Below, in pieces: positions 1 to 19,963 of a stretch of DNA of 32,727 bases. The position numbers and the translations under genes are program-made. Origin of the DNA: an uncultured Pelagibacteraceae bacterium (GTDB taxonomy: Bacteria > Pseudomonadota > Alphaproteobacteria > Pelagibacterales > Pelagibacteraceae); assembly GCA_902616205.1 (NCBI GenBank), contig CACMRY010000008.1, positions 1-32,727 on the forward strand. Direction: 5' to 3'. Numbering within the stretch: the first letter of the stretch is position 1; every line of letters starts with the position of its first letter. The notes under the pieces are model-generated. The model searched no databases. It saw only the letters and a list, made by a program, of their open reading frames with translations, and was not told the origin of the DNA.

Positions 1-1464
1 TTCTAAAACTTTCGGTGTTACATCTGGATCTGGTTCTCTACACTCAGTACAAGTTTTTCGAGCCAATCTTTGTGCAAGAACTAATGAACAGGCAGCTGAA
101 ATTAAATAATCAGGCGTTCCCATATTTTGTAATCTGGTAATAGAACTGGGTGCATCATTTGTATGCAGTGTACTAAATACTAAGTGACCCGTTAATGCAG
201 CTTTCAATCCAATATCTACTGTTTCTTTGTCCCGCATCTCTCCAACTAGAATTATCTCTGGGTCTTGTCTTAAAAAAGATCTAAGCGCTCTATTAAAGTC
301 ATAACCAATATCATCTTTAATTTGAACTTGTCCTACACCATCTAATTCATATTCAACTGGATCTTCTGCTGTTAAAATATTTAAGTGAGGTTTAGATACC
401 TCTTTTAAAATACTATACAAAGTTGTAGTTTTTCCTGAACCTGTTGGACCAGTAACTAAAATTAACCCTTGAGTACCATGAATTGCTTTTCTTAAATTTT
501 TTAAATCGTTTTCTTCAAAATTTAATTGTTCTAAACTTATGTCACCAGCATCTTTGTTTAGAATCCTCATTACAATTCTCTCATTTGTTGCCGTCGGCAA
601 TATTGATAGACGAAGGTCTACTACTTTTCCATCTATCTTAAATGGAATGGCCCCATCTTGTGGCAATCTTCTTTCTGCAATATCTAATTTACCCATTATC
701 TTAAATCTGGTTACAACAGCTCCGTAATTTGAGTGCAAGAATTTTGCAAAATGCTCTTGCTCTTGTAGCATTCCATCCAATCTATATCTTACTCTTGCGC
801 TAAATCTGTAAGGTTCGATATGAATATCTGATACACCAGATTTAATTGCTTCTGCTACAACTGCAGTTGAAAATTTAATAACCTCAGACTCGTTCTCTAA
901 TGCTTCAATATCTTCTTCTGGTTTTTCATCTAGAACTTCTGCATTTTCATCGACTTCATAATCAAAGGTTTGTATTTTTTCTTTGTTTGCTTTTTGAATA
1001 GCTTCAATTGTAGTCTCACCTTCTTTCAAAAGTTTTTGAATAAAATCTGAAATTTGAGTAACTTTAGCTGCATGTAGTTCAATATCTTTTTTTGTTATTG
1101 TTTTTAAATTTCTCATTAAACTTAATTTTGAACTATCAGAAATTGCGATATGAAGAGTTTTTCCTTCGATTTTAAAAGGAGCAATAAAATTCATTCTCAC
1201 ATAATTTGATGGAAGTACTGATTTAATATCATCAGCAATAGGCATTGTTGTTAGATCTACAACTTGTAGAGACTGCTCTTTAACTAATAAATCTAATATT
1301 TTATCTTCATCTGTTAATTTCAACTCAAATACAGCATCTAGTTGAGATTTTTCACCCTCGGAAGAGGCTTTTTTAATATCAATTAAATCTTTTCCAGAAA
1401 TAATATCTTGATCAATTAAAATATTGATTAAATTAATTTCGGACTCTCTACTTATATCAATCAT
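1..1464 (-). CDS. pilB: Type IV pilus extension ATPase PilB (C-terminus cut by window edge)
   Basis: This frame is open from an ATG at 1464 to base 1, giving 488 residues; the ORF track omits it because its stop lies outside the window. PilB-type ATPases are hexameric cytoplasmic motors that power pilus extension. The first ~170 residues resemble the MshEN/T2SSE N-terminal region. An SDIHIEPY motif near residue 213 starts the core, Walker A (GPTGSGKTT) begins at residue 339, the Walker B-like DPEIILVGEMRD is near 400, and the His box (TGHLVFSTLHT) follows. TCTEC (Cys472, Cys475) is the first half of the zinc tetracysteine typical of PilB/GspE and absent from PilT. The start overlaps the pilQ stop as ATGA, so translation is probably coupled. 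The missing part should contain the second CxxC. Confidence 0.93.
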   Translation of the reverse strand, partial: MIDISRESEINLINILIDQDIISGKDLIDIKKASSEGEKSQLDAVFELKLTDEDKILDLLVKEQSLQVVDLTTMPIADDIKSVLPSNYVRMNFIAPFKIEGKTLHIAISDSSKLSLMRNLKTITKKDIELHAAKVTQISDFIQKLLKEGETTIEAIQKANKEKIQTFDYEVDENAEVLDEKPEEDIEALENESEVIKFSTAVVAEAIKSGVSDIHIEPYRFSARVRYRLDGMLQEQEHFAKFLHSNYGAVVTRFKIMGKLDIAERRLPQDGAIPFKIDGKVVDLRLSILPTATNERIVMRILNKDAGDISLEQLNFEENDLKNLRKAIHGTQGLILVTGPTGSGKTTTLYSILKEVSKPHLNILTAEDPVEYELDGVGQVQIKDDIGYDFNRALRSFLRQDPEIILVGEMRDKETVDIGLKAALTGHLVFSTLHTNDAPSSITRLQNMGTPDYLISAACSLVLAQRLARKTCTECREPDPDVTPKVLE

Positions 1465-3011
1465 AATACTCTTGGTGCAATAAACACTAATAATTCGTCT
1501 AAGTTATCAGAATTTGATTTACCTTTAAAGAGATTACCTATCACAGGAACATTCCCAAGACCTGGGGTTTGACTTTTTTGATTAACAATTACGTTCTTTT
1601 TAATTCCTCCAATAACTACTATATCACCATCTGCGACTAATAATTTGGTTACTATCTCCATTTTATTGATTGGTGGTTCATCAGATTCTGCAGATCTATT
1701 TGGGGTATCATTGTTGACTTTAATATTAAGTAGTACATTTCCGTCTCCAATAATGCTTGGAGTAACCTCAAGTTTTAATGCTGCTTCTTTAAATGATGTA
1801 GTTGTTGTACCATCAGCTGTTGTTTGGTATGGAATTTCCTCACCTTGAGTTACAGTTGCTGACTGATTATCCAATGTGAAAACTTTTGGATTTGATATAG
1901 TCTTACCTAATCCTAAACTTTCTAGAGCAGTTATTTCTGCTTTTAGAACTCCCGTTCCAGTTCTTCTTAAAATTCCTATACCACTTGATGCACCAGTTGC
2001 TGCAAAGTTTGTTATACTATCTGTCGCTGAACCTAATTCTCCAACTCCATCTGCACTTAAATCAGTCCCATCAGCACTTCCTGAACTCGGACCAGCTATA
2101 CCTCCAGCATTTCTTCCTCCTCTTAAATAGTAACCACCTAATCTTGTACCTAATGCTCTTTCAAAATCTGAGTTAGCCTCAACAATAAAGGCTTCAATTA
2201 AAACTTGTTTAGTTCTAACATCGATTTCTTTAATTAGTTTGTCCACAACATCAAGATCTTTTTCTTTACCTCTTACAATAATTGATCTTGTTGTGACCTC
2301 CTCAGTAACTTGAATTGGTACAAATGCAGACTCTCCTGAACGTTGTGTAAATAACTCCTCCAATGTAGCTTTAGCTTGGTCTGGAGTAATATAATAAAGT
2401 CTAAATATTTCAGATATAATTGGCTCAACACTATCCTCCAACTCAACTTTTCTTTTTACTGCAGACGCTCTATCAGATTTATAATTTTCTTGTGATGTCA
2501 ACACTTCAGGTGAATGAATTCTTATTAAGTTTGAACTTACATCAATGTCTGATGCATAATTTTTCATGTCTAATAATGCTTGAAAAGCTTTGTCCCAAGG
2601 AACATCAATTAATTCTGCTGAGATTGCACCAGCAACTTCATCTCCAACTAGTACATTAATTTCTCCAATTTTACCCATCAAATACATGGTTTCTTTAAAA
2701 TCAAGATTCTTAAATTTAAAAGTAATTCTTTGTTTAAGAAGTGGATATGTATCTGGTATCAAAAGATAGTTTCTTTGAGCCTCAGATGAAATTTTTTTTC
2801 TTTTGCCATAAACTTTATCTCCTGATGATGGTTTTGGTCCAAGCTCTAAAGTTTTTTGTATTTCCGCTGCACCATCTTTTTTTATATTCTCTTTAATTAA
2901 TGGAGTGTTATGTTTGAAGGGCTTATTTGCACTTTTCATTTGTTGGCAGCCTACTAATACAACTGAAAAGAGAAATAATAATATTAGTTTATTAAATTTC
3001 CTAATATTCAT
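1461..3011 (-). CDS. pilQ: Type IV pilus secretin PilQ/MshL-like, predicted lipoprotein
   Basis: This is the outer-membrane secretin through which the pilus exits. I start it at the ATG at 3011, not the TTG at 3041 used by the track, because GGGAGG lies just upstream and the product then begins with a clean lipoprotein signal (SVVLVGC, Cys22). The protein is 516 residues. An STN-like segment (about 80-160) is followed by a secretin N (NOLAM-type) repeat (about 200-270), a Gly/Ser-rich loop, and a C-terminal secretin domain ending in PVIGNLFKGK and LDELLVFIAPRVL, the usual secretin end. It is shorter than Pseudomonas PilQ (about 700 aa) and shows no AMIN domain, so it is closer in size to MshL. 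It overlaps pilP by 11 bp and pilB by 4 bp. Confidence 0.9.
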   Translation of the reverse strand: MNIRKFNKLILLFLFSVVLVGCQQMKSANKPFKHNTPLIKENIKKDGAAEIQKTLELGPKPSSGDKVYGKRKKISSEAQRNYLLIPDTYPLLKQRITFKFKNLDFKETMYLMGKIGEINVLVGDEVAGAISAELIDVPWDKAFQALLDMKNYASDIDVSSNLIRIHSPEVLTSQENYKSDRASAVKRKVELEDSVEPIISEIFRLYYITPDQAKATLEELFTQRSGESAFVPIQVTEEVTTRSIIVRGKEKDLDVVDKLIKEIDVRTKQVLIEAFIVEANSDFERALGTRLGGYYLRGGRNAGGIAGPSSGSADGTDLSADGVGELGSATDSITNFAATGASSGIGILRRTGTGVLKAEITALESLGLGKTISNPKVFTLDNQSATVTQGEEIPYQTTADGTTTTSFKEAALKLEVTPSIIGDGNVLLNIKVNNDTPNRSAESDEPPINKMEIVTKLLVADGDIVVIGGIKKNVIVNQKSQTPGLGNVPVIGNLFKGKSNSDNLDELLVFIAPRVL

Positions 3012-3429
3012 CTGCCTCCCTAATAACATTGTTAAAATCAATGATCACAAATTTCTTGTCTTCTTTTTCAAATATTGCTTCGTTTAATCTAAGATCTATA
3101 AGTTTTATTTTTCCTAAAAATTGTCCAAGCGTAATTGTCATTACTTCACCACCAGAATTTGCTAATGAAATGTAACTATTATCCTTACCTGATATCAGTC
3201 CAACAAGTTTAAAATTATACAAACTCATTTCGTCCTCTTCTTCTTCAGATGGCATTTGAGAATTTAAAGCACCACCTGTACCTTCATTACCCGCAAAAGG
3301 ATCATTCAAAGGAACTTCCTCATCTTCAGATATTTCTTGCGCAATTTCATTTTGGCCGTGGTTATCTGCAAAACTATTTGATGAAAAAATAAAAAATAAT
3401 AAAATCAGAAAAAGTTTAAAAAAATTCAT
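3001..3429 (-). CDS. pilP: PilP-like periplasmic alignment-complex protein
   Basis: The protein has 142 residues and a signal peptide with a likely cleavage after FSSNSFA. An acidic low-complexity linker (many Glu and Asp, about residues 30-70) follows. The C-terminal part (LYNFKLVGLISGKDNSYI, then a GQFLG-type strand) resembles the PilP/GspC homology region that docks on the secretin N-domains. PilP is normally a lipoprotein, but no lipobox cysteine is visible here and the secretin carries one instead. It sits between pilO (14-bp overlap) and pilQ (11-bp overlap), the standard pilMNOPQ position. The family call rests on position and the short C-terminal domain, because PilP sequences diverge strongly. 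Confidence 0.78.
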   Translation of the reverse strand: MNFFKLFLILLFFIFSSNSFADNHGQNEIAQEISEDEEVPLNDPFAGNEGTGGALNSQMPSEEEEDEMSLYNFKLVGLISGKDNSYISLANSGGEVMTITLGQFLGKIKLIDLRLNEAIFEKEDKKFVIIDFNNVIREADEY

Positions 3430-4054
3430 TTGGCAAACCTACAATTGTTAGTTCTCCACTTGCAACGACTGCTCCGTTAGGATCGTTTTGTACTACATTT
3501 ATGAGCTCTTTGTCAAAGTTTAGCATTTTTTTTGACCTAGATACTGCTCTTTTAAATTTAATATAGTTTAAAAAGTTACCCTTAATCTCATAATCTACAG
3601 GTATTTTGTAATAAGACACCATGCTTTGATCAAGTAGTTCCTGAGCCTGGGCAGCCACCCCTGATTTTAATACTGGTTGTGGTTTTTGCTTTTGTATTTT
3701 TGAAATTACTAATCCATAAGCTCCAGCGTACCTACTTAAACTGTCGTATAAACCCTCCACTTCTGCTTTAGAGTGAAATAGTGTTGAATTTTTTTCAACA
3801 ATAGGTTCCATTTTTTTTATTCTATTTTTTATTGTTATAATGTCATTTTCAAATTGCTGAATTTCCATTTGCTTATTTATTTGATCATCCAAAGTTGCTT
3901 TTTTTTCATTTACCATTGGCCTTAAAATTGCAAAATAAATTATTAGGAAAAGAATGATAGCTCCAATTCCAATTCCAAATTTAATTAAAGTTTTCTTATC
4001 AAAAGCTGCAAACTTTTCTTTTAAATCTTCAACAGTTATATTTTTCAAATCCAT
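3416..4054 (-). CDS. pilO: PilO-like inner-membrane alignment protein
   Basis: The chosen start is the ATG at 4054, which has GGAG eight bases upstream and forms TAATG with the pilMN stop; the track's ATG at 4075 has no such site. The product is 212 residues. It has a cytoplasmic N-terminus, one membrane segment (about residues 24-45, GIGIGAIILFLIIYFAI), a coiled-coil stretch (about 50-100) and a periplasmic ferredoxin-like domain. This is the PilO layout; PilO pairs with PilN through similar domains and links the cytoplasmic PilM ring to PilP/PilQ. Position between the PilM-PilN fusion and PilP supports the call more than residue identity does. Confidence 0.82.
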   Translation of the reverse strand: MDLKNITVEDLKEKFAAFDKKTLIKFGIGIGAIILFLIIYFAILRPMVNEKKATLDDQINKQMEIQQFENDIITIKNRIKKMEPIVEKNSTLFHSKAEVEGLYDSLSRYAGAYGLVISKIQKQKPQPVLKSGVAAQAQELLDQSMVSYYKIPVDYEIKGNFLNYIKFKRAVSRSKKMLNFDKELINVVQNDPNGAVVASGELTIVGLPNEFF

Positions 4055-5760
4055 TAGATTTTCTCCAATATACAATTAATTAAAAAGCCTTTCATTGCAT
4101 TATTTGTGTTACCAGAGGCTGTTGATAAATCCATGCTTGCAAGAGATGCCTGTGAAATTAATTTTTTATTATTTAAATTACTAATTAACTTTAAAATATC
4201 CTGGTCACTCGCAGCAAGCCCTTGAATAAGAATTTGGTTAGTTCCATTAAAATCAAGTTTTGTAAATCTTACTCTTTTTGGAACTGCTGATGCAACCTGA
4301 GCCAATACTCTAAAACTTATTTTTTTGTTTGACTTAATTGATTTACTTAACTCTAAAGATTTATTTAATTTGCTGAGTTCTTTACTTATTTTTGCTAACT
4401 GATCACTTCTTTCTTGATGAGTTTGAACTATCTGAGAGTAATTGCTAATTTTACTATTTAAGGAATTTATTTGCCAGAATGATAAAGCAAAAAGAACAAT
4501 ATAAACTACTGACACTGTCCCTAATATTCCTTTAAATGCAAAATTTGAAAATGCTTTTGCCCTTTTTTGTTTTATCATCGAGTCTCTGTTTGGAAGTAGA
4601 TTTATATTTTTAACAGCTGTTACAAATTTAAAATATCCAAATACATCAAGCTTTCTAAATGCAAGACCCATCACTGTAGATAGATAAGATCGATTGTCTA
4701 ATTTAACACTTTCTTCAATTTGAGCAGGAATTTTTATTCCATCGAGTGGATCAAATAAATTAAAACCTGTATTAACTAAATTTTTTCTAAAACTTGCAAG
4801 ATAAGTTTCAACATTGGCTAAATTAGAAGTAACTTTTAAATTTCTGATTCTTTTTTCATATTTTGTTTCAAAATCCTGTACTGCTTGTTTTACTTGAGTA
4901 ATGTATCTTCTTACTAACGCATCCATCTCCTCTTGATTGTTACTTTCAATTAAAGTGGTTCTATCCTGGCCTCTAATAAATATATCAGTAATAATCGGAT
5001 TATTTTCATATAAAATCATTACATAATTCTCATCTAATCCAAATTCTAAAACAGCAGTCAAATTGGAATCTTCAATAGTCCCTGAAATTTGATTTATTTG
5101 GTCTACTGCAGATTTTAATGCAAAACATTTTACATCAATAATAACAGCGTTCATTCCTCCTTTCTTAATTATTTCAGTATAACTATTTATGTCTGCTAAC
5201 TTTGATGCCACAAATAATATATCCATTGTATTGCCAGTTTGATCTCTATTTATCACCTGGTGAAAAATAGAATAATCATCCAAGTTATCAGTAAGCTGAA
5301 CTAAATTCTCCCAAAGTGAATCTGTTTTTACAGCGTTATGAAGCTCTTCATCTGTCATTAATGGGCTTGTAACAACTCTTATAATTGCACTGGTTACTGG
5401 TATCGCTATTGCAGCATTAGATGTTGAAATTTTTGACTTTTGAATCGCAATTTTTAACTCTTCGGCAACTTTATCTGGATGTTCTAAAACTGATGAGTTT
5501 TCTGGCAAACCTTCAATTTTATGTGTATAAAATTTTTCTAAAATCCATTGATTAGATTTATTAGTTGAAATTTGAGCTAATCTAATTTCATTTGTAGATA
5601 AATCTACACCAACAATTTCCTCCCCTTTAACGGAACTCTTGCCAAGTCTATTTTTTATTAATTTACTAAAAAAATTTTCTTTTTTTGTAGATGATGCCTC
5701 TGGCTTTACTGAAGGAGCACTATCTTTTTTTTTAAATAAATTAGCAAATGGGTTTTTCAT
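4054..5760 (-). CDS. PilM-PilN fusion protein (type IV pilus alignment complex)
   Basis: One 568-residue ORF carries what are usually two genes. Residues 45-375 are PilM-like, an actin-fold cytoplasmic protein with the nucleotide-site start GVDLSTNEIRLAQI (51-64) and end SYLSTVMGLAFRK. Residues 384-568 are PilN-like: the PilN N-terminal motif INLLP (386-390), a membrane segment (about 411-430), a periplasmic coiled coil and a small C-terminal domain. In other bacteria PilM binds the INLLP peptide of PilN, so the fusion tethers known partners. The first 45 residues are Lys/Ser-rich and probably disordered. No frameshift or internal stop is seen at the join. It heads the minus-strand pil operon and overlaps pilO by one base. 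No clear Shine-Dalgarno site precedes the ATG. Confidence 0.9.
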   Translation of the reverse strand: MKNPFANLFKKKDSAPSVKPEASSTKKENFFSKLIKNRLGKSSVKGEEIVGVDLSTNEIRLAQISTNKSNQWILEKFYTHKIEGLPENSSVLEHPDKVAEELKIAIQKSKISTSNAAIAIPVTSAIIRVVTSPLMTDEELHNAVKTDSLWENLVQLTDNLDDYSIFHQVINRDQTGNTMDILFVASKLADINSYTEIIKKGGMNAVIIDVKCFALKSAVDQINQISGTIEDSNLTAVLEFGLDENYVMILYENNPIITDIFIRGQDRTTLIESNNQEEMDALVRRYITQVKQAVQDFETKYEKRIRNLKVTSNLANVETYLASFRKNLVNTGFNLFDPLDGIKIPAQIEESVKLDNRSYLSTVMGLAFRKLDVFGYFKFVTAVKNINLLPNRDSMIKQKRAKAFSNFAFKGILGTVSVVYIVLFALSFWQINSLNSKISNYSQIVQTHQERSDQLAKISKELSKLNKSLELSKSIKSNKKISFRVLAQVASAVPKRVRFTKLDFNGTNQILIQGLAASDQDILKLISNLNNKKLISQASLASMDLSTASGNTNNAMKGFLINCILEKI

Positions 5761-5918: not shown

Positions 5919-6935
5919 ATGTTTGATAAATTAGAAGATCTTGCCAAAAATAATAAAAAAATATCCGATTTTCATATTAGAGCAGGATCGCCTTTAGCTT
6001 ACAGACAAACTGGTGAAATTATTATGGTGCAAGAAACGCCAGTTACTCCTCAAGATCTAAAAGATCTATTATCAATGAATTGTAATGAAGGCGAATTAGA
6101 AAAATTTGAAACAACGCATGAGCTTGATACTGCTATCACATTAGGTGGTTTAAGGTTTAGAGCAAACTTTTATAAAACGATTAATGGTCCTGCATGTGTT
6201 TGTAGGAGAGTTGAGAGTAAAATTCCAGATATGGATCAATTCAGTTTACCACCAGCACTTTATGATGTGATTGACTATCATAAAGGATTAGTTTTGGTAA
6301 CTGGCCCAACTGGATCAGGTAAATCAACAACTCTAGCTGCTATAGTAAATGAGATAAATAAACAAAGGACAGCGAATATAATTACAGTTGAAGATCCGGT
6401 TGAATTTATTCATAAGGATCAAAAAAGTATTGTTTCACATAGAGAGGTTGGAAAACAAACTCAATCGTTTGCTGCAGCCTTAAAAGCAGCTCTTAGAGAA
6501 GACCCTGATGTAATTTTAGTGGGAGAGATGAGAGATCTCGAGACTGTAAGTCTAGCATTAACCGCAGCTGAAACGGGTCACTTAGTATTTGGAACTTTAC
6601 ATACAAGTGGAGCACCAAGCACCATAAATAGAATTATCGACGTGTTTCCTCCTGAACAGCAAGCACAAATTAGAGCCCAAATTTCTACTTCACTTAAAAT
6701 GGTAGTTACACAAAGATTATTTAAAACAAAAGATGGACAAGGTAGATGTGGCGCTTTTGAAATTATGAAGTGCACTCCTCCAGTTCAAAATTTAATTCGT
6801 GAGGCAAAGATACATCAAATTCCAAGTGTGATGCAAACAGCGGTTAGAGATGGAATGATTACCATGGAAAAATCTATTCAGGATCTTGTAACATCAGGAA
6901 AAATTGACACTAGTGCAGCAAAAGCAGAACATTAA
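5919..6935 (+). CDS. pilT: Type IV pilus retraction ATPase PilT
   Basis: This 338-residue cytoplasmic ATPase depolymerises pili. It has the full PilT set: an N-terminal PAS-like region, Walker A GPTGSGKS (129-136), VEDPVEFIH (157-164), Walker B DPDVILVGEMRD (195-206) and His box TGHLVFGTLHTSGAPS. A C-terminal LIRE motif after PPVQN corresponds to the AIRNLIRE retraction motif of PilT. No tetracysteine zinc site is present, which separates it from PilB. It leads the plus-strand unit into the minor-pilin genes; its end overlaps the next gene by 32 bp. No Shine-Dalgarno site is seen before the ATG. PilT indicates retractile pili, as used for twitching or DNA uptake. Confidence 0.95.
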   Translation: MFDKLEDLAKNNKKISDFHIRAGSPLAYRQTGEIIMVQETPVTPQDLKDLLSMNCNEGELEKFETTHELDTAITLGGLRFRANFYKTINGPACVCRRVESKIPDMDQFSLPPALYDVIDYHKGLVLVTGPTGSGKSTTLAAIVNEINKQRTANIITVEDPVEFIHKDQKSIVSHREVGKQTQSFAAALKAALREDPDVILVGEMRDLETVSLALTAAETGHLVFGTLHTSGAPSTINRIIDVFPPEQQAQIRAQISTSLKMVVTQRLFKTKDGQGRCGAFEIMKCTPPVQNLIREAKIHQIPSVMQTAVRDGMITMEKSIQDLVTSGKIDTSAAKAEH

Positions 6936-7578
6936 AGGTTTTACTCTCTTAGAATTATTAGTGATAATTGCAATTATAGGAGTAGTTGCAGGAATGGGTT
7001 TACCACAATTTGAAAAATGGAGTATGGATAGACTGGTTAGAACTCAAGCTGAAAAAGTTGCCTCAATCTTAAGTGTAGCAAGTACTCAAGTTGAAAGAGG
7101 ATCATATCCATATGTTAGAGTAGAATTTGAAACGGATAAGTTGATCACCGTGAAAGGTATCGACGCTACTACTCTTTCTAATAAACTCAATGCTAACAAA
7201 AAACCAACTTGTGTCAGTACAGACATGGATGGCTCTGATACCATAACATCATTATCATTGGATGAAGATGTGTATGTCTATCATTTAGTAAAAAATGCAG
7301 CGATTTGTTTTTCAAAAGGTGGTAAGTACTTTAAACAATTTGGAAGCGCAGATAGTCAATATAATAGTACTTTAGACAAAGTATCATTAACAAATAATTT
7401 AATTGTAATTTGTCATCAAAGAGTAACAACATGCAATCCCCCAACAAAAAAATTTTTGCCACTACAGACTGCAACCAAAGATGGGAATTTTCCTGTATAT
7501 TTAGTAAAATATTCAAGATTTGGTATAATAAATAAATACAAATATTCTTACGAAAAAAATGACTATATTAACCAATAA
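6904..7578 (+). CDS. Minor prepilin, FimT/FimU (GspH)-like
   Basis: The 224-residue product has a short leader ending in Lys-Gly, then the type III signal FTLLELLVIIAIIGVVAGMG. Cleavage after Gly12 leaves Phe at +1 and Glu at +5. The start is a TTG at 6904 inside pilT, with AGGA four bases upstream; a GTG at 6913 is the alternative. Being first of four prepilin genes before PilV, PilW and PilX, it matches the FimU/FimT slot of the Pseudomonas fimU-pilVWX-pilY1 order. The globular part has several cysteines and no recognised domain. It is too long and too divergent to be an obvious major pilin, though that cannot be excluded from sequence alone. Confidence 0.82.
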   Translation: MTLVQQKQNIKGFTLLELLVIIAIIGVVAGMGLPQFEKWSMDRLVRTQAEKVASILSVASTQVERGSYPYVRVEFETDKLITVKGIDATTLSNKLNANKKPTCVSTDMDGSDTITSLSLDEDVYVYHLVKNAAICFSKGGKYFKQFGSADSQYNSTLDKVSLTNNLIVICHQRVTTCNPPTKKFLPLQTATKDGNFPVYLVKYSRFGIINKYKYSYEKNDYINQ

Positions 7579-8101
7579 ATACAGAAACAGAGACTCAGAA
7601 AAGGGTATAACTTTGTTGGAGGCTATTGTTGCAACAGCAATAATTGGTATTGGTTTTGTGGCTGTATTTCAAATGGTTCAGTACTCGGTAAGATCTATTG
7701 ATGTTTCTGGCGAAAGAACAAAGGCAAACTATATTGTAGGAACAATTGCTGAGGATATTTTTGCTTATAAAAAACAGGAAAAGGCCTCAAAAACCTTCAT
7801 GGACGCATTAAAAGACAATCAATGGAAAGTTGAAACTTGTACAGATGGATCTAATTCAAATCCATCTGCAAACATTGCAGAAGATAATATAAGGAATAAA
7901 TGGAATGCAAAAGTATCAAAAGGCGTTTTGAAATGCGTTGATGGAGCAAAAGATAAAAAAGTATTAACTATGCATCTAATGTGCAAAACGGGTTGCCCAG
8001 TAAGTAATCCTACAGCATACGACAAAGTTTATGTGGGAAGAATGGAAATTAATATGAATAGTGGCAATAAGACAAAATATTTATATTTCCAAGTAAAATA
8101 A
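7559..8101 (+). CDS. pilV: Minor prepilin PilV-like
   Basis: The 180-residue protein has a 16-residue leader ending in Glu-Lys-Gly, then ITLLEAIVATAIIGIGFVAVF, the class III prepilin helix with Glu at +5. PilV proteins form part of the minor-pilin priming complex that starts pilus assembly and links PilY1 to the fibre. The rest is a small domain with four or more cysteines (including ETCTDG and CKTGCPV), which could form disulfides in the periplasm. It overlaps the preceding prepilin by 20 bp and its stop forms TAATG with pilW. The subtype call rests mostly on gene order. Confidence 0.78.
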   Translation: MTILTNKYRNRDSEKGITLLEAIVATAIIGIGFVAVFQMVQYSVRSIDVSGERTKANYIVGTIAEDIFAYKKQEKASKTFMDALKDNQWKVETCTDGSNSNPSANIAEDNIRNKWNAKVSKGVLKCVDGAKDKKVLTMHLMCKTGCPVSNPTAYDKVYVGRMEINMNSGNKTKYLYFQVK

Positions 8102-8979
8102 TGAAAAAGAAATTTAGTAAAATTTCTGGTCTTACTTTAATAGAAATTTTAATTGCAATTGTAATATCTAGCTTGATGATGGCTGCTATGTTTACATCTT
8201 ATTCAGTTGTGAATAGTACTTATAGACAAGTAACTGATAGAGCAAAAATTTCACAAGCAGGTCGAGATCTTGTTGGTCAAATTTTAAGAGAAGTTAGAAT
8301 GGCTGGGTATAAGTATTTCAATGACAATATTGCTGCTGACGAATCTCATGTACCAATTAAGATTACTAAACGAAAGGGTTTTGGTGATGCGGGAACAAAA
8401 GTTCCAAAAGAATTTGAAGAGGTCGGATGTGATACTTTAGAAATTGTTTACGGAAGTGTTGATTATGACAGTGATGCTGACGAGGACAAAAAATATACTT
8501 ATACAAGATATAAAATTAAATATTGGTGTGAGGCATCTGCAAAAATTGATCCATTTACAGATAAAGAAATAAAAGGTTTTAAGGTTTTGAAAGCTAGAGA
8601 AAAATGGGATGGTTCCAAATTTAGTGCACTTTCAACAGATGACACTCTTTTTGACAGAGAGGAAGTTTTAGATTTTGTCCAAGATATGGTTTTTGTTCCT
8701 TTAGATGAAAATGGAAAAAGAATTGATGCAGATAGCAGTGGTAAGTATACAAATGCACAAGTTGTACCAAGTTCTGGTAAGGAATACGATGTTAGAACAG
8801 TTGATATTGGATTAATTGTTAGATCAACTAGACCTTTTTATAGAGATGATAAAAGGTCAGGAGCTATTCGAAAGATTATCTCCTTAACATCTGGGCGAGA
8901 CATATCAGAAGAGGATAGATATTTAAGAGACATAATTACAGTTACCGCTAACGCAAGAAATGTTGGAATTGAACAATGA
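8101..8979 (+). CDS. pilW: Minor prepilin PilW-like
   Basis: The 292-residue protein has leader MKKKFSKISG, then LTLIEILIAIVISSLMMAAM with Glu at +5. After the helix, QAGRDLVGQILREVRMAGY is the conserved PilW segment. A DSDADED stretch near residue 122 is acidic and might bind calcium. PilW is usually the largest non-adhesin minor pilin and precedes PilX, as here. The gene starts on the last base of the pilV stop (TAATG) and ends in ATGA with pilX, so coupled translation is likely. Family assignment is good. Confidence 0.85.
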   Translation: MKKKFSKISGLTLIEILIAIVISSLMMAAMFTSYSVVNSTYRQVTDRAKISQAGRDLVGQILREVRMAGYKYFNDNIAADESHVPIKITKRKGFGDAGTKVPKEFEEVGCDTLEIVYGSVDYDSDADEDKKYTYTRYKIKYWCEASAKIDPFTDKEIKGFKVLKAREKWDGSKFSALSTDDTLFDREEVLDFVQDMVFVPLDENGKRIDADSSGKYTNAQVVPSSGKEYDVRTVDIGLIVRSTRPFYRDDKRSGAIRKIISLTSGRDISEEDRYLRDIITVTANARNVGIEQ

Positions 8980-9662
8980 CAAACAAAAAAGAAAAAGGTT
9001 TTGCGTTAGTTCTTTCATTAGTTTTATTAATGGCAATGTCTTTAATGGGTGGAGCTTTAATTGTAATTTCTGCAAGTGACCACCAAAGTAATAATTTAAG
9101 TGATGAGTATCAGCAGACTTTTTATGTTGCAGAAACCGCTTTGTTGGAGGGAGAAAAATATATTATTAATCAATACCTGGGACCCTACAAAGCAAACGGT
9201 CAAAGAGATTCTTCTAAGAGACAATTGGTAGGAAATTCAACAAGTTTATTTGCAACAGGAACTCCACCAGTAGCACCGAGTGCAATCAGATCATGTTTTA
9301 ATAGTTATGTAGATATTGACAGATCAACTTTTAAAGTTTTAAGTGGTCCAGATCCAGATACTCCAACTAGCACTGCAAATGTTGATGTACACGAAAGTAA
9401 AAGTTATTATGATTTTCTTACCTCAGGAATTGTTCAAAGTGGTGATAGTAATCGTGAAAAGAAAAGGATGCAAAAATTCAAATATGAATATTTTATGACC
9501 AGAGTTGGATCGGCTCCATTTAAAGGCTCAGGGACAAGTATCAAAAAAGATGCAACAGATGCAAGTTCAGATGGGATGGCTTATAGAGTTTATGGTTGTG
9601 GTAACTTCGATAGTGGTAAGATAATAGTTGCTTTAGAAAGTACGATTGTTCTACCTAAATAA
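8976..9662 (+). CDS. pilX: Minor prepilin PilX-like
   Basis: The 228-residue protein has a short leader (MTNKKEKG), then FALVLSLVLLMAMSLMGGAL, followed by the PilX signature YQQTFYVAETALLEGEKY. Position +5 is Leu instead of Glu. Lack of Glu5 is known for the tip pseudopilin GspK and fits a tip position, since no upstream subunit needs to be paired. Two or more cysteines lie in the globular part. It ends the pilT-to-pilX unit; about 98 bases follow before the next gene, including a putative promoter. Confidence 0.83.
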   Translation: MTNKKEKGFALVLSLVLLMAMSLMGGALIVISASDHQSNNLSDEYQQTFYVAETALLEGEKYIINQYLGPYKANGQRDSSKRQLVGNSTSLFATGTPPVAPSAIRSCFNSYVDIDRSTFKVLSGPDPDTPTSTANVDVHESKSYYDFLTSGIVQSGDSNREKKRMQKFKYEYFMTRVGSAPFKGSGTSIKKDATDASSDGMAYRVYGCGNFDSGKIIVALESTIVLPK

Positions 9663-10306: not shown

Positions 10307-13300
10307 ATGAAAAAAATTTCAATATTATTAGTCTCTATTTTTTTAATTTTTCCTTTTGTAATTTCTAATTCTTATTCAAAAGCTTTACCACCTGGTTCAG
10401 GAGTAGCAGATGTTCCTGCTAATGTTTTAATTTTATTAGACAAGTCTGGTAGTATGAGTATTTCATCTTATACCGGTGCAAATATAGGAAGACCTCAGTC
10501 AATTGCGTTGATCGAAAATACTGGAAACTATATTTCAAATAATAATAATCAATTAGTGGGAGTTGATCACGGAAGTAACGCTAGAACTGCCATCGTTCAA
10601 AAAAGAGTAACTTATAGTGTAAGAAATAATAATTGTTCTACAAATTATGGAAATACCAGTATCCTTCATCATGACGGTCATATATATTTTTCAGGAAAAC
10701 GAACTCATAGAAGTAATGGTACTCTTTGTAGAGTAAATACTTCATCAGGTGTACTTACTCAAATTAAAGGTGGTTTTCATAGAAACTCTAGATTAACAAT
10801 AAAAAAACACAACGATGTGATAATTGTTATTGACAAGCATTCAAGAGAAATTTTTTTATACGACTCTGCTACTGGTGCTAAAAAAGAATGTTCAACTAGC
10901 GGTGAACTACGAAATGATATTCATAACTCTGGATATGGTAACGGTGTAAGATTTACAGTTGATGCATCTGGTAATTTAGTTTTTGCAAGATCTTATTATA
11001 TAAAGAAATTCTCTAGAAGTGGAATGAATTGTCCAAATAATAGCAAATTTTTTCAAAGTGCATATTTCTTTGATATAAGAAATTCGACTGCAATAGCAAG
11101 CCATCCTACAAACGAAAATATAATTTATTTCACTTCATCCTCAAACCACGCACTTCATAAAGTTACTTTAAACTCAAGTAGTGGTACTAATGTTAGTTTT
11201 ACACAGGAAAGAGTGGGTAGATATGGACGACTTGGTGGCAATTATAATCCAACTTCGAAATCAGCTATCCGCTTCAACTTCCCAAGAGATATTACAATTG
11301 ATCCTTCTTTAAACAGAATATTTGTTGCAGAAACTAATAATTTCTCAATACAAACATTTGACCTTAATTTGAATTATCATGGGCGTTCAGGGTATAGAGC
11401 AGCACAATCAAGAATGTCAGGTGCTCATCAAGCCATTCAATCTTTAGTAACAGACAGTAGTTTAGTCTCTTCAGTTAATTTTGGATTTGGATACTGGTCT
11501 CATGATGCAAGTAACACAATATGGTACAGTTACTATAAACGTCATAATAGTTATAAAAGATGCAGATCTTATATTGGAAACCCAAGTTGGTTGACAGCAA
11601 GTCACTGGTTAGCAAGATATAATTATTGGTGCTGGAAACCTTCTGCGGGTGGCTTAGGTTATACAAAATGGGATACAGCGAGAGATCAAGCAGATCCTTG
11701 TGACGGTCAAAATTGTTTAAAAGTTAAAGTGGATAGAAACGGTGCTAATAAAATTAACAATTATATTAAAAGTGTCAGACCAGGTGGTGGTACTGATGCA
11801 AATACCTGGGCAACAATTGCAGAACAATACTACAATCATAAATCAGAAAGCCCCATAGATAAAAACAGCCCGTGTCAAGGATCTTATGTAATCGTAATTG
11901 GTGATGGAGATTGGTACAATCAAGCAGCTGCAATAACAAAAACAAAAAATCTTCTAAAAAAGAAAATCAAAACTTTTACTGTAGCTTATGGAGGTGGAAT
12001 TAGCCCAGGTGGAATAAGAGCATTTAATGCAATTGCAAAAGCAGGTGGAACAGACAGAGTAATAAAAGCAGACACAACAGATCAATTAAAAGCACAATTG
12101 GGTGCTGCAATTAGATCTGTAATTGCTGACAAATTAGCCTTTACTGCTCCAGCAATTACCGCAACAATTGAAGAAGGTGGATCATTATTCCAAGCACAAT
12201 TTAAATATAAGCAAAATGAGGAATGGCAAGGTTCATTAACAAGAACTGCAATATCTAAAGAAGGTGTTGTTGATGAAAAAGATCCGTCCAATTGGAATGC
12301 TTCAGATGTGATACCATCTCCTGGTTCAAGAAAAATATGGGGTGTAATTCCAGGTGCTGATTACAAAACTGATTATAATAATTATACTGAAGCTAATTCA
12401 TTATTAATTCAATCTCAACTTGGATTATTTGGTAATGAAGTTGGTGATTATCATAGGGATACACCAAAAGTTGCTGGTGTAACAGGTAATACTCGTTGTA
12501 GCGCAAAAGGAGATAGTGTTGCAACTATTGCGGATGGAAATGATGATGATGTTAAAGGTTTAATAAGTTTTTCTAGAGGACAGGATTATTTTGATTACGA
12601 CGGAGATTGTTTGTTAAACGAAATGAGAATAGGACCACCAATTGTCGATAAAAATGGAAAAATAATTACAAAAGGAAGAAAAAAATATTTAGGAGATATA
12701 TTTCATTCTGAAATGGTAATCGTAGGAGCACCTTCTGCTGAAACAGCGTTTTCATCGAGTAACCAAGAAGCTTATTGGAGATCTATTAATAATTATGATG
12801 CTTGGGCCAAATCTTTAAGTACAAGAGAAGAGAGAATTTATGTTGGAGGTAACGATGGCATGTTACATTCAATTGATAGTAAAACAGGTATTGAAAAATG
12901 GGCATTCATACCTCCATTTATAATGCCAAAAATACCTCTTATGGTGAACGAAAATTTGAACAATGAACTTGCAAAACAAAAAGGGGGAACTAATGCAATT
13001 TATGGAGTGGACGGATCTCCAGTAGTACACGACATGTTTTTTAAAAGTCCTCTTGGATCTGGAAAACAATGGCACACTATATTAATGGTGCCTTATGGCA
13101 GAGGTGGAAATGGTTTTTCTGTTCTTGATATAACAAAACCTGATAAACCGCTTCATTTATACAGTGTTTATAATGACCATATTAAAAATACAGTTCATGT
13201 AATGAACCATTTAGGCACTCATTCAGAATACGAGTACATTGATGATACTTATTCAATAATTGATATGGAAGAAAGTATTACAGTTCAAGATAATTATAAT

Positions 13301-14746
13301 AATAACAACAGTATTGATGATGAATGTAAGGCAGATACAACCACATCATGTTATGAAAGTAAAACGTGGACTTTTCCAGTTGTAGGTGTTCAAAAATCTG
13401 ATTTAATTATTTCGATAAATAATAAAATTGAAAAAAACTTTACTGTTAATATCGCATCTTCAGGTAAAACTGAAATAACTTTACCAGACCAATTATTTTT
13501 TCAAGCAAATGGTGATAAAGCTCAATCTCAAGATACTCTTATTATTAAATTGACAAGAGCTGCAACTCAAAGCTTAAGTCAAAATCTTCCAGCAGAGTAT
13601 AATTATAGAGAATTGGGAGAAACTTGGTCAGCTCCTAGAATATTTAGATTACCCAATACAGGTGCAGGAGACACAAATATTCTTGATGATATTTATGTCG
13701 CCGTTATGGGAGGTGGGTATGGTGGTAGAAATGATGGAGTAGGATCAGCTTTATTTGTTATTAATCTAGAAGATACAATAACTCCAGGCAAAGTAGAGAA
13801 GGTAATTGAAGTGTTAGATGATAAAAATATTGATATTGTAAATTCGATACCTGGAAGTCCTGTTGTTATTACTTCAGATACTGCAAGAGGAATAAAGTTT
13901 ACAGGAGCACTTGTCTACACAAATGATTTTGAAGGAAAGATTACCAAATTTAATTTGACTAATATGAAAGTGGATGCAGCAGGGAGTGCCATTAAACTTT
14001 ATGATCAATCAACTATTCTGTCGATAGAGGCTAGCAAAGAAAATGGACGGTACCAATATCACTCTATGGATGCAGGAATTGGAAAAACATCTAAAAATTT
14101 GTGGCTTTTTTCGGGTACTGGCGATTATGAAAGATTAACGTTTAAAGATACAAAACTTGATAATATTATGTTTGGGTTTAGAGATAAGTTTTATCCAAAA
14201 TTTCATTCACCTCAAAGATCCACAACTATACTTCATGGACTTGAAAAATGCATGGATACTACAGATGATACCACCGGTGTTAAATGTCCACTTACAACTA
14301 AAGCGGTAAGCAGGAAAGCAAGAGCAACGAAAGACCATGGCTGGTTTATAAAATTACCTTCTAGTCAAAAAATAACTGCTGAGCCAACATTGTCAAACGG
14401 ATTGGTATACTTCCCTATTTTTGAACCATCTGTATCGAAAAATAGATGTAGTTTGGGTCTTGCACTGATATGTGCAGTTGATGATGAGTGTGGAACTAAC
14501 GTTTCAAAACAATTAAATGAAAATAAATCTCTTAAAAGCCAAACAGTTGATGGAGAGGTCTTCACTGGAAAAACCTGTAAAGCAGTAGGTAAAGGTGTGC
14601 TTTCAAGACTCGTGGTATTTGCAAATAAATTGTTTGCAAATATAGCTGGTAAATCTGAACAAGAAAAAACGGATCTTGTAGTTATAGATACAGGAGAATC
14701 TGATATAGATAGCTTTAGAAATTCTTGGAGAGATGTAAACTTTTAA
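10307..14746 (+). CDS. pilY1: PilY1-like pilus tip adhesin with vWA and PilC-type propeller domains
   Basis: The 1479-residue protein has a signal peptide (about 1-24). A von Willebrand A domain starts with the MIDAS motif DKSGSMS (45-51) and seems to resume after a long insert with FGFGYWSHD (about 392-400), GGGTDANTW (493-501) and VIGDGDW (530-536). The insert (about 85-355) has NHL-like propeller repeats such as FNFPRDITIDPSLNRIFVAE. The second half is the PilC/PilY1 propeller: RIYVGGNDGMLHSID (843-857), YGVDGSPVVHD, MVPYGRGGNGFSVLDI, LGETWSAPRIFRLP and VAVMGGGYGGRNDG. A DYDGD...NE stretch (763-772) could bind calcium. PilY1 proteins sit at the pilus tip, help priming and mediate adhesion or surface sensing. 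Its stop shares TTAA with the opposing gene. Confidence 0.92.
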   Translation: MKKISILLVSIFLIFPFVISNSYSKALPPGSGVADVPANVLILLDKSGSMSISSYTGANIGRPQSIALIENTGNYISNNNNQLVGVDHGSNARTAIVQKRVTYSVRNNNCSTNYGNTSILHHDGHIYFSGKRTHRSNGTLCRVNTSSGVLTQIKGGFHRNSRLTIKKHNDVIIVIDKHSREIFLYDSATGAKKECSTSGELRNDIHNSGYGNGVRFTVDASGNLVFARSYYIKKFSRSGMNCPNNSKFFQSAYFFDIRNSTAIASHPTNENIIYFTSSSNHALHKVTLNSSSGTNVSFTQERVGRYGRLGGNYNPTSKSAIRFNFPRDITIDPSLNRIFVAETNNFSIQTFDLNLNYHGRSGYRAAQSRMSGAHQAIQSLVTDSSLVSSVNFGFGYWSHDASNTIWYSYYKRHNSYKRCRSYIGNPSWLTASHWLARYNYWCWKPSAGGLGYTKWDTARDQADPCDGQNCLKVKVDRNGANKINNYIKSVRPGGGTDANTWATIAEQYYNHKSESPIDKNSPCQGSYVIVIGDGDWYNQAAAITKTKNLLKKKIKTFTVAYGGGISPGGIRAFNAIAKAGGTDRVIKADTTDQLKAQLGAAIRSVIADKLAFTAPAITATIEEGGSLFQAQFKYKQNEEWQGSLTRTAISKEGVVDEKDPSNWNASDVIPSPGSRKIWGVIPGADYKTDYNNYTEANSLLIQSQLGLFGNEVGDYHRDTPKVAGVTGNTRCSAKGDSVATIADGNDDDVKGLISFSRGQDYFDYDGDCLLNEMRIGPPIVDKNGKIITKGRKKYLGDIFHSEMVIVGAPSAETAFSSSNQEAYWRSINNYDAWAKSLSTREERIYVGGNDGMLHSIDSKTGIEKWAFIPPFIMPKIPLMVNENLNNELAKQKGGTNAIYGVDGSPVVHDMFFKSPLGSGKQWHTILMVPYGRGGNGFSVLDITKPDKPLHLYSVYNDHIKNTVHVMNHLGTHSEYEYIDDTYSIIDMEESITVQDNYNNNNSIDDECKADTTTSCYESKTWTFPVVGVQKSDLIISINNKIEKNFTVNIASSGKTEITLPDQLFFQANGDKAQSQDTLIIKLTRAATQSLSQNLPAEYNYRELGETWSAPRIFRLPNTGAGDTNILDDIYVAVMGGGYGGRNDGVGSALFVINLEDTITPGKVEKVIEVLDDKNIDIVNSIPGSPVVITSDTARGIKFTGALVYTNDFEGKITKFNLTNMKVDAAGSAIKLYDQSTILSIEASKENGRYQYHSMDAGIGKTSKNLWLFSGTGDYERLTFKDTKLDNIMFGFRDKFYPKFHSPQRSTTILHGLEKCMDTTDDTTGVKCPLTTKAVSRKARATKDHGWFIKLPSSQKITAEPTLSNGLVYFPIFEPSVSKNRCSLGLALICAVDDECGTNVSKQLNENKSLKSQTVDGEVFTGKTCKAVGKGVLSRLVVFANKLFANIAGKSEQEKTDLVVIDTGESDIDSFRNSWRDVNF

Positions 14747-15500: not shown

Positions 15501-17408
15501 TTATTTTGCTGAAATAAAAGTTCTAAATATCTTTGTCAATTCAATATTTTGATTTTGATATCTAAACCTTTCATAAAGGTTAAAAAACGATTTATATTTC
15601 TTTTGATAATCTTGTTTAAGTTTATTATATATTTCTTGATGTGTATCTGAATTCAAAATTTTATTTTGTTTTTTACTAATCACAATAATATAATGTAACA
15701 TCCATTTTAAAATATTTGCTTTATTGATTTTGAAATATAATTTTAATACCATATAAATTATTAAAGGCGCAAAAATCAAATAAAAAATATTTGAAAATCT
15801 TAAATTCGTAATTTCTTTTATAAATGATTTTCTTTTATTGTTGTCATAGGATAATAAATGTTTGGTCCACACAAAGTCTGCATAGTTGAAAAAATATTTT
15901 AAGTTTTGAAAAGCTTTTAGTGTAAATAGTGAAGTTGTGTTCTCCTCTGTATTATTAAATAAATTATTATAGCTATTTCTTATATTTGAACCTGGTATAA
16001 CTGAGGTTGGGTCTATTTGAGTCCACCCTTTCCCATTTATCCAAACTTCTACCCATGCATGAGCATCTTGTTGCCTAAAAACATAAAAATCGCCAACTGT
16101 ATTTAATTCACCACCATAATACCCAGATACAATTCTACTAGGTATGTTAGCTAATCTTGAAAGCAAAACTAATGTTCCAGCAAAATATTCACAGTATCCC
16201 TCTTTGCCTCTTAAGAAAAAATCTGCATAACTATTTTGTGAATTATTTACAGGACTTAAATTGTAATAATAAGAACCATCTGAAAAAGTATTTAAAATAT
16301 GATTTAGATATTCTATATTAGATTTAGATTGTTTATTATTTTTCACCCAATCTATTAGCTCTTCCGAAACCGATTTTGGCAATAAAGTATAATATTCTAA
16401 AAGTTCTTCACCAATTCTATAATCAGCATCATACTTTTGAAATTCTATTTGTATCTTTCGATCAATTGGATCTAAACTTTTATATGTTTGATTAAAAGGA
16501 TCCTCCCCAATCCTAACATTTTGTTTTGCTAATCTTGAATTGTTTAAGGCTGGTATCCATTTTTTTTTATGAGGATTTAGTATTACCTGATATTTTATAT
16601 CTATAGCCTTTGCATTTGTTATTTTATATGAGTTTTTGTAGTTATTATAAAGATACAGGGGTGATGATGTTCGCCAAGATTTATCCTCTTCCATATAATC
16701 AAATATTTTTACCCTAAAATAAAGATCCTGCTTTTTAAAATTTTTGTTCACTAATGTGAAAACTTTTTCATCTGAATTTGCAAAATTTTCAAAAGATCCA
16801 AGATTAATAGAGTCAGGAATTCCAAGTGAACTTTTAGATGGATCAAACAATCTAAAATTTATTTCGGCTCTTGGAAAAATTAAATAAAAAATAATAATAA
16901 ATGGAAAAATACTTAGACCAAAGCCTAAATATTTTAATATATTTTTAAAATTAAAATCCATTACTTCTTTTTGTTGAATTAAATACATATTGATCACTAA
17001 TAAAACGATAATTGATAATGAAATTAATGAACTCAAAATGTCTTGGCCGCTGATCAAACTTACTACACTAAGCACCATGCAAATTAAATTATAAGATAAA
17101 AGATTATTTTTATTATTTAATTCTGCATATTTAACAATTAATAAAACTCCTATACAATTTATGAAAAATTCCTCAGAAAATATATATTGGTTAAATATAA
17201 ATTGGATATAAAGTAATCCAATTGCATAAATTGACAGTAAAAAACTTTTAAACTTAAAATCTATCCTATTAATTAAAATACTTATAATCGATGTTATTCC
17301 CCAAAATATCTTATTAACAAGTGATACATTTTCTGAAATAGATAATAAACAAATTCCTAATAATATGAGAGATAAAAATTTAGTATCGCTAAAATTAATT
17401 TTTGACAT
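15501..17408 (-). CDS. TgpA-like membrane transglutaminase (DUF3488 + transglutaminase core)
   Basis: The 635-residue inner-membrane protein has about six N-terminal hydrophobic helices (residues 10-180, ending in LIFPR), a periplasmic transglutaminase-like domain, and one later membrane helix (about 546-566). The catalytic triad is visible as Cys406 (GYCEYFA), His450 (QDAHAWVEVW) and Asp466 (GWTQIDPT). TgpA of Pseudomonas is an essential member of this family; its substrate is not firmly known. The neighbours DUF58 and MoxR are its usual genomic partners. The start overlaps the DUF58 gene by 14 bp. The family call is secure, but the biological role is open. Confidence 0.9.
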   Translation of the reverse strand: MSKINFSDTKFLSLILLGICLLSISENVSLVNKIFWGITSIISILINRIDFKFKSFLLSIYAIGLLYIQFIFNQYIFSEEFFINCIGVLLIVKYAELNNKNNLLSYNLICMVLSVVSLISGQDILSSLISLSIIVLLVINMYLIQQKEVMDFNFKNILKYLGFGLSIFPFIIIFYLIFPRAEINFRLFDPSKSSLGIPDSINLGSFENFANSDEKVFTLVNKNFKKQDLYFRVKIFDYMEEDKSWRTSSPLYLYNNYKNSYKITNAKAIDIKYQVILNPHKKKWIPALNNSRLAKQNVRIGEDPFNQTYKSLDPIDRKIQIEFQKYDADYRIGEELLEYYTLLPKSVSEELIDWVKNNKQSKSNIEYLNHILNTFSDGSYYYNLSPVNNSQNSYADFFLRGKEGYCEYFAGTLVLLSRLANIPSRIVSGYYGGELNTVGDFYVFRQQDAHAWVEVWINGKGWTQIDPTSVIPGSNIRNSYNNLFNNTEENTTSLFTLKAFQNLKYFFNYADFVWTKHLLSYDNNKRKSFIKEITNLRFSNIFYLIFAPLIIYMVLKLYFKINKANILKWMLHYIIVISKKQNKILNSDTHQEIYNKLKQDYQKKYKSFFNLYERFRYQNQNIELTKIFRTFISAK

Positions 17409-19201: not shown

Positions 19202-19963
19202 TTAAATTGCGAAAAATTTTAGTTTATCTTCAAATAACAAATAAATTAAATTTCCAATTATTATATACGGTCCAAAGGGAATTTGTGTAGACATTTTTTT
19301 TGTTTTTTTAATTAAATCAGGTAAAACTACTAGTAACGCAATTACTGAGGATAAAAATATAACAAATGGAATGGACTCTAATCCAAACCAAAATCCAACT
19401 ACTGCTAGTAGTTTAGCATCGCCTAGACCCATGCCTTCTTTATTCTTGAATTTTTTATAAAAGAAAATAATCCCCCAAATAATTCCATAACCGAAACATC
19501 CTCCAATTAAAGAGTTAATATAATTTGGAAAAATTTCATTTAAATTTAGATCAAATGATTTTATAAAACCTATTATCATTAAAGGAAAAGTAACTACATC
19601 TGGAATAATAAAATGTTTTAAATCTATAAAAAAAATTATGATTAAACCTAAGGTTAGAATAAACAAAAATGCTGTTGTAAAAGTTAATCCATAATAAAAA
19701 TATTCTATTAAAAAAAATAGGGCTGTTAATAATTCGACAATTAAATATTGAATGGATATTTCTTTGTTACAATTTCTACATTTTCCTCTTAATAATATAT
19801 ACGAAATAAATGGAATGTTGTCGTACCAACTTATTTTTTTTTTGCATTTTGGACAACTAGAGCGACCTGAAATCACTCCTTTATCTTTTGGTAATCGAAC
19901 TATACAAACATTAGCAAAACTACCCCAAAGCAACCCTAATAATAAAACGAAAATGAAGTCCAC
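19202..19963 (-). CDS. pilD: Type IV prepilin peptidase/N-methyltransferase PilD
   Basis: This 253-residue polytopic inner-membrane aspartic protease cleaves the prepilin leader after Gly and methylates the new N-terminus. The N-terminal cytoplasmic loop has the zinc tetracysteine, CPKC (37-40) and CRNC (62-65), typical of bifunctional PilD. The two catalytic Asp regions are FFIDLKHFIIPD (Asp114) and GMGLGDAKLLA (Asp182). The start is GTG at 19963, directly after an in-frame TAA; no better start exists before the first helix, and no Shine-Dalgarno site is seen. It would process the four prepilin-like proteins encoded at 6904-9662. It heads the minus-strand run into moxR. Confidence 0.94.
   Translation of the reverse strand: MDFIFVLLLGLLWGSFANVCIVRLPKDKGVISGRSSCPKCKKKISWYDNIPFISYILLRGKCRNCNKEISIQYLIVELLTALFFLIEYFYYGLTFTTAFLFILTLGLIIIFFIDLKHFIIPDVVTFPLMIIGFIKSFDLNLNEIFPNYINSLIGGCFGYGIIWGIIFFYKKFKNKEGMGLGDAKLLAVVGFWFGLESIPFVIFLSSVIALLVVLPDLIKKTKKMSTQIPFGPYIIIGNLIYLLFEDKLKFFAI

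Follow-up and report, generated by a model that had tools for sequence, protein, structure and literature searches.

Organization of the pilus locus

The window analyzed here is a 32,727-nt stretch of contig CACMRY010000008.1 from an uncultured Pelagibacteraceae bacterium, and all coordinates refer to it. Judged by its genes, it contains a type IVa pilus locus, in which pilM and pilN form one gene, pilMN. The minus strand carries pilB, pilQ, a probable pilP, pilO and pilMN in that order, and the genes for a PilT-like ATPase, minor-pilin-like proteins and a PilY1-like protein are divergent from them.

1..1464, minus strand: pilB assembly ATPase with an MshEN N-terminal domain, truncated by the window edge (Pfam T2SSE 1e-108, MshEN 1.4e-13)
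1461..3041, minus strand: pilQ secretin (TIGR02515, type IV pilus secretin PilQ, 306.8 bits, over cut-off)
3001..3429, minus strand: probable pilP, without a Pfam match, assigned from its place between pilO and pilQ
3416..4054, minus strand: pilO (Pfam PilO E 4.4e-4, just under cut-off, and operon position)
4054..5760, minus strand: pilMN fused gene, 568 aa, a single open frame with Pfam PilM_2 and PilN matches
5919..6935, plus strand: pilT-like retraction ATPase, divergent from pilMN (Pfam T2SSE 1.5e-49, without MshEN)
6904..9662, plus strand: four minor-pilin-like genes (N_methyl motif match in three)
10307..14746, plus strand: PilY1-like tip protein, 1479 aa (Pfam T4P_PilY1 8.7e-21)
19202..19963, minus strand: pilD prepilin peptidase (Pfam A24_N_bact and Peptidase_A24)

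The locus thus holds PilM, PilN, PilO, PilP and PilQ, assembly and retraction ATPases, and minor pilins, with PilO matching below threshold and PilP placed by position. PilB carries an MshEN domain, and domains of this kind bind c-di-GMP in other motors. The stretch at 15501-19196, which separates pilD from the PilY1 region, holds genes for a TgpA-type transglutaminase, a 307-aa protein without a Pfam match and a MoxR-type AAA ATPase. A PADLOC search returned no match.

A single frame encodes PilM and PilN

The pilMN frame opens with an ATG and runs through 568 codons with zero internal stops, and its stop codon shares one base with the ATG of pilO (TAATG). Pfam places both families in this one chain and above cut-off, with PilM_2 at residues 51-256 (PF11104, E 1.6e-20, 73.8 bits against a cut-off of 27) and PilN at residues 484-563 (PF05137, E 1.9e-10, 41.1 bits against a cut-off of 22.8), in agreement with an earlier note on this DNA that had read PilM and PilN in one uninterrupted frame and had proposed the Pfam search. 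TIGR01175 scores 80.3 bits, under its cut-off of 133. The PilM_2 alignment covers no more than profile positions 1-203 of 340; using a family profile, the PilM domain aligns end to end with Pseudomonas aeruginosa PilM (5EOX, 2.8e-67). This alignment and the region modeled confidently by AlphaFold2 (~45-370) match the boundaries of 45-375 given for PilM in the earlier note to within a few residues, and its position for the INLLP motif was exact.

5629..5760, minus strand: N-terminal tail, residues 1-44 (pLDDT mostly <50; conservation 0.61-0.63)
4645..5628, minus strand: PilM (actin-like) domain, residues 45-372, from Pfam, model and profile; nucleotide motifs altered
4606..4644, minus strand: fusion joint, residues 373-385, VFGYFKFVTAVKN (identity 0.98 over 372-385)
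4591..4605, minus strand: INLLP, the PilM-binding peptide of PilN, residues 386-390, from the sequence
4462..4530, minus strand: predicted membrane helix of the PilN part, ~residues 411-433, assigned by eye, within a long helix of the model
4057..4461, minus strand: coiled and ferredoxin-like periplasmic part of PilN, residues 434-568 (Pfam PilN 484-563; helix/strand order of the model)

The second half of the chain therefore has the full set of PilN features: the profile match, an N-terminal INLLP, a membrane helix (by eye) that is preceded by a basic stretch, and the ferredoxin-like domain. The host assembly, which is 70.5% complete, returned no second PilM_2 or PilN match when searched. Because PilMN is a single chain with a single membrane helix, the fusion would fix PilM and PilN at a 1:1 ratio and tether PilM to the membrane.

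Predicted structure and the PilN peptide

Each of the ten best PDB matches to the predicted structure is a PilM (lowest E values 1.4e-22 and 9e-23). At the sequence level, the profile match extends across the joint as far as the PilN peptide in an engineered P. aeruginosa PilM:PilN1-12 chimera (5EOU, 2e-70), with GLALRSFD-SSGMAR-INLLP of the chimera aligning to GLAFRKLD-VFGYFKFVTAVKN-INLLP of the SAR11 protein. The linker from the end of PilM to INLLP is 13 residues long in PilMN and 6 in the chimera. The AlphaFold2 model treats the joint as flexible (pLDDT <50 at ~374-381) and places INLLP at moderate confidence only (blocks of ~58-73). A second model (A3) resembles the PilN-bound PilM structures 5EOU and 2YCH (TM 0.75-0.76 by target) more closely than PilN-free P. 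aeruginosa PilM (TM 0.65-0.69 by target), although the prediction method itself may favor this bound-like conformation.

The peptide might reach its groove in either of two ways. As a variant of the single-chain subunit that we propose below, INLLP could bind the PilM domain of the next chain and so build a covalently linked, domain-swapped ring; the flexibility and 13-residue length of the joint favor such an exchange, and PilM and PilN of Myxococcus xanthus have been modeled as a ring (PMC8389850). We regard binding in trans as somewhat doubtful, since the P. aeruginosa chimera, with just 6 residues between PilM and INLLP, was deposited as a PilM:PilN1-12 complex; the monomer models are blind to the difference between cis and trans. 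The single-chain subunit itself is common to both arrangements.

The joint is the most conserved part of the protein

Across 43 non-redundant copies, the top 22-aa windows all fall inside residues 365-392, where conservation is ~0.99, compared with 0.86 for the PilM domain and 0.82 for the PilN fold. Synonymous variation is 0.35 over residues 372-385 and 0.62 in INLLP, around a value of 0.43 typical for the gene. Of 38 aligned SAR11 copies, 37 have an unchanged INLLP and the other reads INLLS; the motif has decayed in three divergent copies (L131, L139 and L182). As the joint and INLLP are the most conserved stretch while synonymous change stays in the usual range, the alignments indicate that selection acts on the joined protein.

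This pattern bears on whether the fusion is a by-product of neutral genome compaction, in which adjacent, overlapping genes were joined without functional effect and the motif losses described below are unrelated drift. SAR11 genomes are indeed small and streamlined, and pilM and pilN of gammaproteobacteria already abut or overlap (e.g. L197), so that one frameshift could join them. We nevertheless consider this explanation unlikely, as the constraint on the joint is stronger than that on either domain and the fusion is also present in alphaproteobacteria with genomes of 1.9-2.8 Mb (G210, G273).

Loss of the PilM nucleotide motifs

The nucleotide site of the fused PilM domain is altered at every motif: R60 replaces the phosphate-1 lysine, E239-F-G-L replaces DIGA and T311-S-N replaces AGG. 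The DIG aspartate and both glycines of the adenosine motif are absent from all 59 fused copies compared. At the phosphate-1 position, 51 of these copies have Arg, 4 have Gln and 1 has Lys, and fused PilM is short of a subdomain 2B segment of ~17 residues or more; in the window protein, subdomain 2B is largely missing. Separate gammaproteobacterial PilMs retain the phosphate-1 lysine, the DIGA motif and the adenosine GG (DIG aspartate and GG present in 3 of 3 counted; in one further motif scan a simple pattern missed some motifs, and absence there means "not matched").

With these motifs lost, the fused PilM domain probably no longer binds ATP, although the arginine of the main SAR11 type is a conservative substitution for the phosphate-1 lysine. 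Judged by its sequence, we read PilMN as containing a PilM-fold domain that acts like a PilM scaffold rather than an ATP-binding PilM. Free PilM has been proposed to switch in dependence on ATP and PilN; such switching would then probably be impossible here, which alters the argument of the earlier note that fusion limits an exchange of PilM that matters for signaling between the motors and the alignment complex. In Thermus thermophilus PilM, Lys26 is required for ATP binding, yet the K26A mutant, although unable to bind ATP, continues to bind PilF and stimulates it together with PilN (PMC6325625); a nucleotide-free PilM can therefore still couple to a motor.

The same features raise the possibility that PilMN is the GspL of a type II secretion system (T2SS). 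The architecture is the same, GspL likewise has lost its nucleotide motifs and is not known to carry bound nucleotide, and the PilN part of one relative (L098) matches GspL_C weakly (E 0.003, under cut-off). This identity is very improbable, as PilMN is far closer to PilM by profile (5EOU, 2e-70) and by structure (9e-23 for 5EOU against 1.4e-8 for 1YF5), and no GspL family matches it in Pfam at E 0.001. Its operon, with a PilQ-type secretin, a second, PilT-like ATPase and PilY1, is not a T2SS neighborhood, and true alphaproteobacterial GspL loci differ, with proteins of 362-375 aa. PilMN is thus best described as a pilus protein of GspL-like design.

Distribution of the fusion

The closest named relatives belong to the Pelagibacteraceae (SAR11), which are very abundant ocean bacteria, with 98% identity to a single-cell genome. 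A scan of genome contigs confirmed 241 relatives, and nearly all of the 80 kept are full-length, unbroken and fused, the exceptions being one that ends at a contig end (L097) and one with a shortened C-terminus (L033). The full-length copies share 64-98% identity (70-98% among those from the contig scan) and come from many independent assemblies, many of them single-cell genomes. Divergent fused copies (22-24% identity) are present in the complete, single-contig SAR11 genomes G012, G158, G357 and G435, and further ones in G051, G083, G273 and G210. That sequencing or assembly error joined two genes, as might be feared of a window from a fragmented, 70.5%-complete assembly and as the earlier note had allowed, is scarcely credible given these relatives, the complete genomes and the concentration of conservation at the joint itself. 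A pilMN match was found in 18 of 61 related genomes. Many of the others are incomplete, and SAR11 bacteria may carry the pilus as an accessory trait.

Looking more widely, 49 of 385 sampled alphaproteobacterial genomes contain PilN matches (54 in total). None of the 54 lies in a frame shorter than 345 aa, the size range of a free-standing PilN, and 8 are the fused PilMN protein. Five other matches that were inspected in detail (L134-L138) are interpreted as GspL of type II secretion loci. Six more, in long frames with provisional start codons (L183-L188), have T2SS-like surroundings. In a phylum-wide sample drawn mostly from outside the Alphaproteobacteria, most of the PilN matches listed are in frames of ~180-250 aa, and in the gammaproteobacterial examples opened, PilM and PilN are separate and INLLP lies at PilN residues 3-5. 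As short-frame PilN is absent from the class sample and the genes are separate in the examples opened elsewhere, fusion seems, in the genomes sampled, to be the usual arrangement of alphaproteobacterial type IVa pili. The survey of related genomes that the earlier note had suggested thus finds the fusion throughout SAR11 and in other sampled alphaproteobacterial pilus loci, and separate pilM and pilN, which would have spoken against it, in none of them.

Several candidates were set aside during these searches. PilN-containing frames of ~520-605 aa in several high-GC gammaproteobacteria resemble fusions, but they are long stop-free frames that read pilM out of frame, or the genes are separate. 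Most PilM_2 matches in the class survey fall at positions 130-235 of 400-450 aa frames and are probably FtsA/MreB-type actins. Matches of 374-455 aa in five genomes (G244, G184, G366, G306 and G268) belong to loci resembling those of a T2SS and are interpreted as GspL.

A proposed role for PilMN

We think it likely that PilMN is a single-chain, GspL-like, membrane-tethered and nucleotide-free PilM-PilN subunit of a genuine SAR11 type IVa pilus machine. The PilN membrane helix would anchor the cytoplasmic PilM domain to the inner membrane, and the conserved joint would bring INLLP to the PilN-binding groove of its own or a neighboring PilM domain. Since the joint would deliver the peptide in this way, PilM would be held permanently in the PilN-bound state. 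With the nucleotide motifs gone and subdomain 2B largely missing, the domain may serve as a scaffold without nucleotide, in the manner of GspL in type II secretion. Such a scaffold could hold PilB and PilT at the ring and couple both, via PilN, to PilO, PilP and PilQ.

More tentatively, it is possible that alphaproteobacterial type IVa pili followed the GspL route independently, with PilN tethered to PilM first and the ATP site and subdomain 2B lost afterwards. If so, the ATP binding of free PilM would mainly serve its reversible association with PilN and the motors, and would become dispensable once the association is covalent. To our knowledge, type IV pilus biology has yet to settle what the ATP bound by PilM is for. 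In SAR11, a type IVa pilus seems to work with PilM joined to PilN and the nucleotide site gone, and these bacteria are thus a natural setting for testing whether motor switching requires the exchange of PilM and its binding of ATP.

Comparison with known systems

The protein is a natural counterpart of the GspL arrangement as well as of the chimera built for crystallography. The P. aeruginosa chimera 5EOU has the same fold and domain order, and the natural joint mirrors the engineered one; P. aeruginosa itself has two separate genes and a PilM that binds ATP, whereas the SAR11 protein lacks the nucleotide motifs and the greater part of subdomain 2B. T. thermophilus PilM-PilN (2YCH) shares the PilM fold and the binding of the N-terminal PilN peptide, but its genes are separate and it relies on Lys26 for ATP binding (PMC6325625) where SAR11 has Arg.

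Two fusions have been described before. GspL/PulL of the T2SS is presented as a PilM and PilN fusion (PMC10191384, PMC4471445), with a PilM-like cytoplasmic domain, a membrane helix and a PilN-like periplasmic domain in one chain, as also in EpsL (PMC10191384); SAR11 PilMN differs from it in having INLLP, a type IVa operon and a fold that ranks PilM far above GspL. Clostridioides difficile is described as having PilM and PilN fused in a type IVa pilus system (PMC6916266, citing Melville and Craig 2013), as in SAR11. Compared by this published description, it is a monoderm without an outer membrane or PilQ, and a different motif has been suggested for the monoderm PilM-PilN contact (PMC6916266), whereas SAR11 retains INLLP.

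The earlier note had not known the fusion as the standard arrangement. This impression of novelty is right only in part: we found no report of a PilM-PilN fusion from SAR11 or alphaproteobacteria in the open-access literature, but C. difficile PilMN and GspL/PulL are precedents (PMC6916266, PMC10191384, PMC4471445). Because a similar fusion is already known elsewhere, SAR11 PilMN represents a variant that spans a lineage rather than a new type of machine. What is new is the combination of a lineage-wide diderm type IVa fusion, a constrained joint with INLLP in most SAR11 copies, and the loss of the nucleotide motifs. PilMN also bears on how the GspL of the T2SS originated from pilus parts.

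Divergent variants

In two alphaproteobacteria outside SAR11 (L139 and L182), PilM and PilN are fused, INLLP has decayed and the PilM nucleotide motifs are not recognizable. In a SAR11 subgroup (L010-L017 and L098), the N-terminal tail of PilMN is enlarged to ~200 aa and holds a near-invariant domain of ~60 aa, VIHKKDGRLHIYVRQDKYKGELKSKNWVGRLYIDGKQKISSSGTPNLDEAIPILEKWFD, flanked by low-complexity linkers. This domain has no Pfam match and, among the 61 related genomes, occurs only in PilMN. Frames of 755-840 aa in some relatives, considered as PilM-N-O triple fusions, carry N-terminal extensions instead, with pilO still separate.

In complete SAR11 genomes with divergent pilMN (L131, L132, L133 and L140), the neighboring gene encodes a protein of 398-422 aa, with no pilO between the two. 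The three such proteins scanned (L131, L133 and L140) contain LysM domains, and those of L131 and L140 match PilP weakly, so that the neighbor, once a candidate PilO-PilP fusion, is a LysM and PilP-like protein. In two of the SAR11 genomes with divergent pilMN, a PilO match lies ~27-33 kb away.
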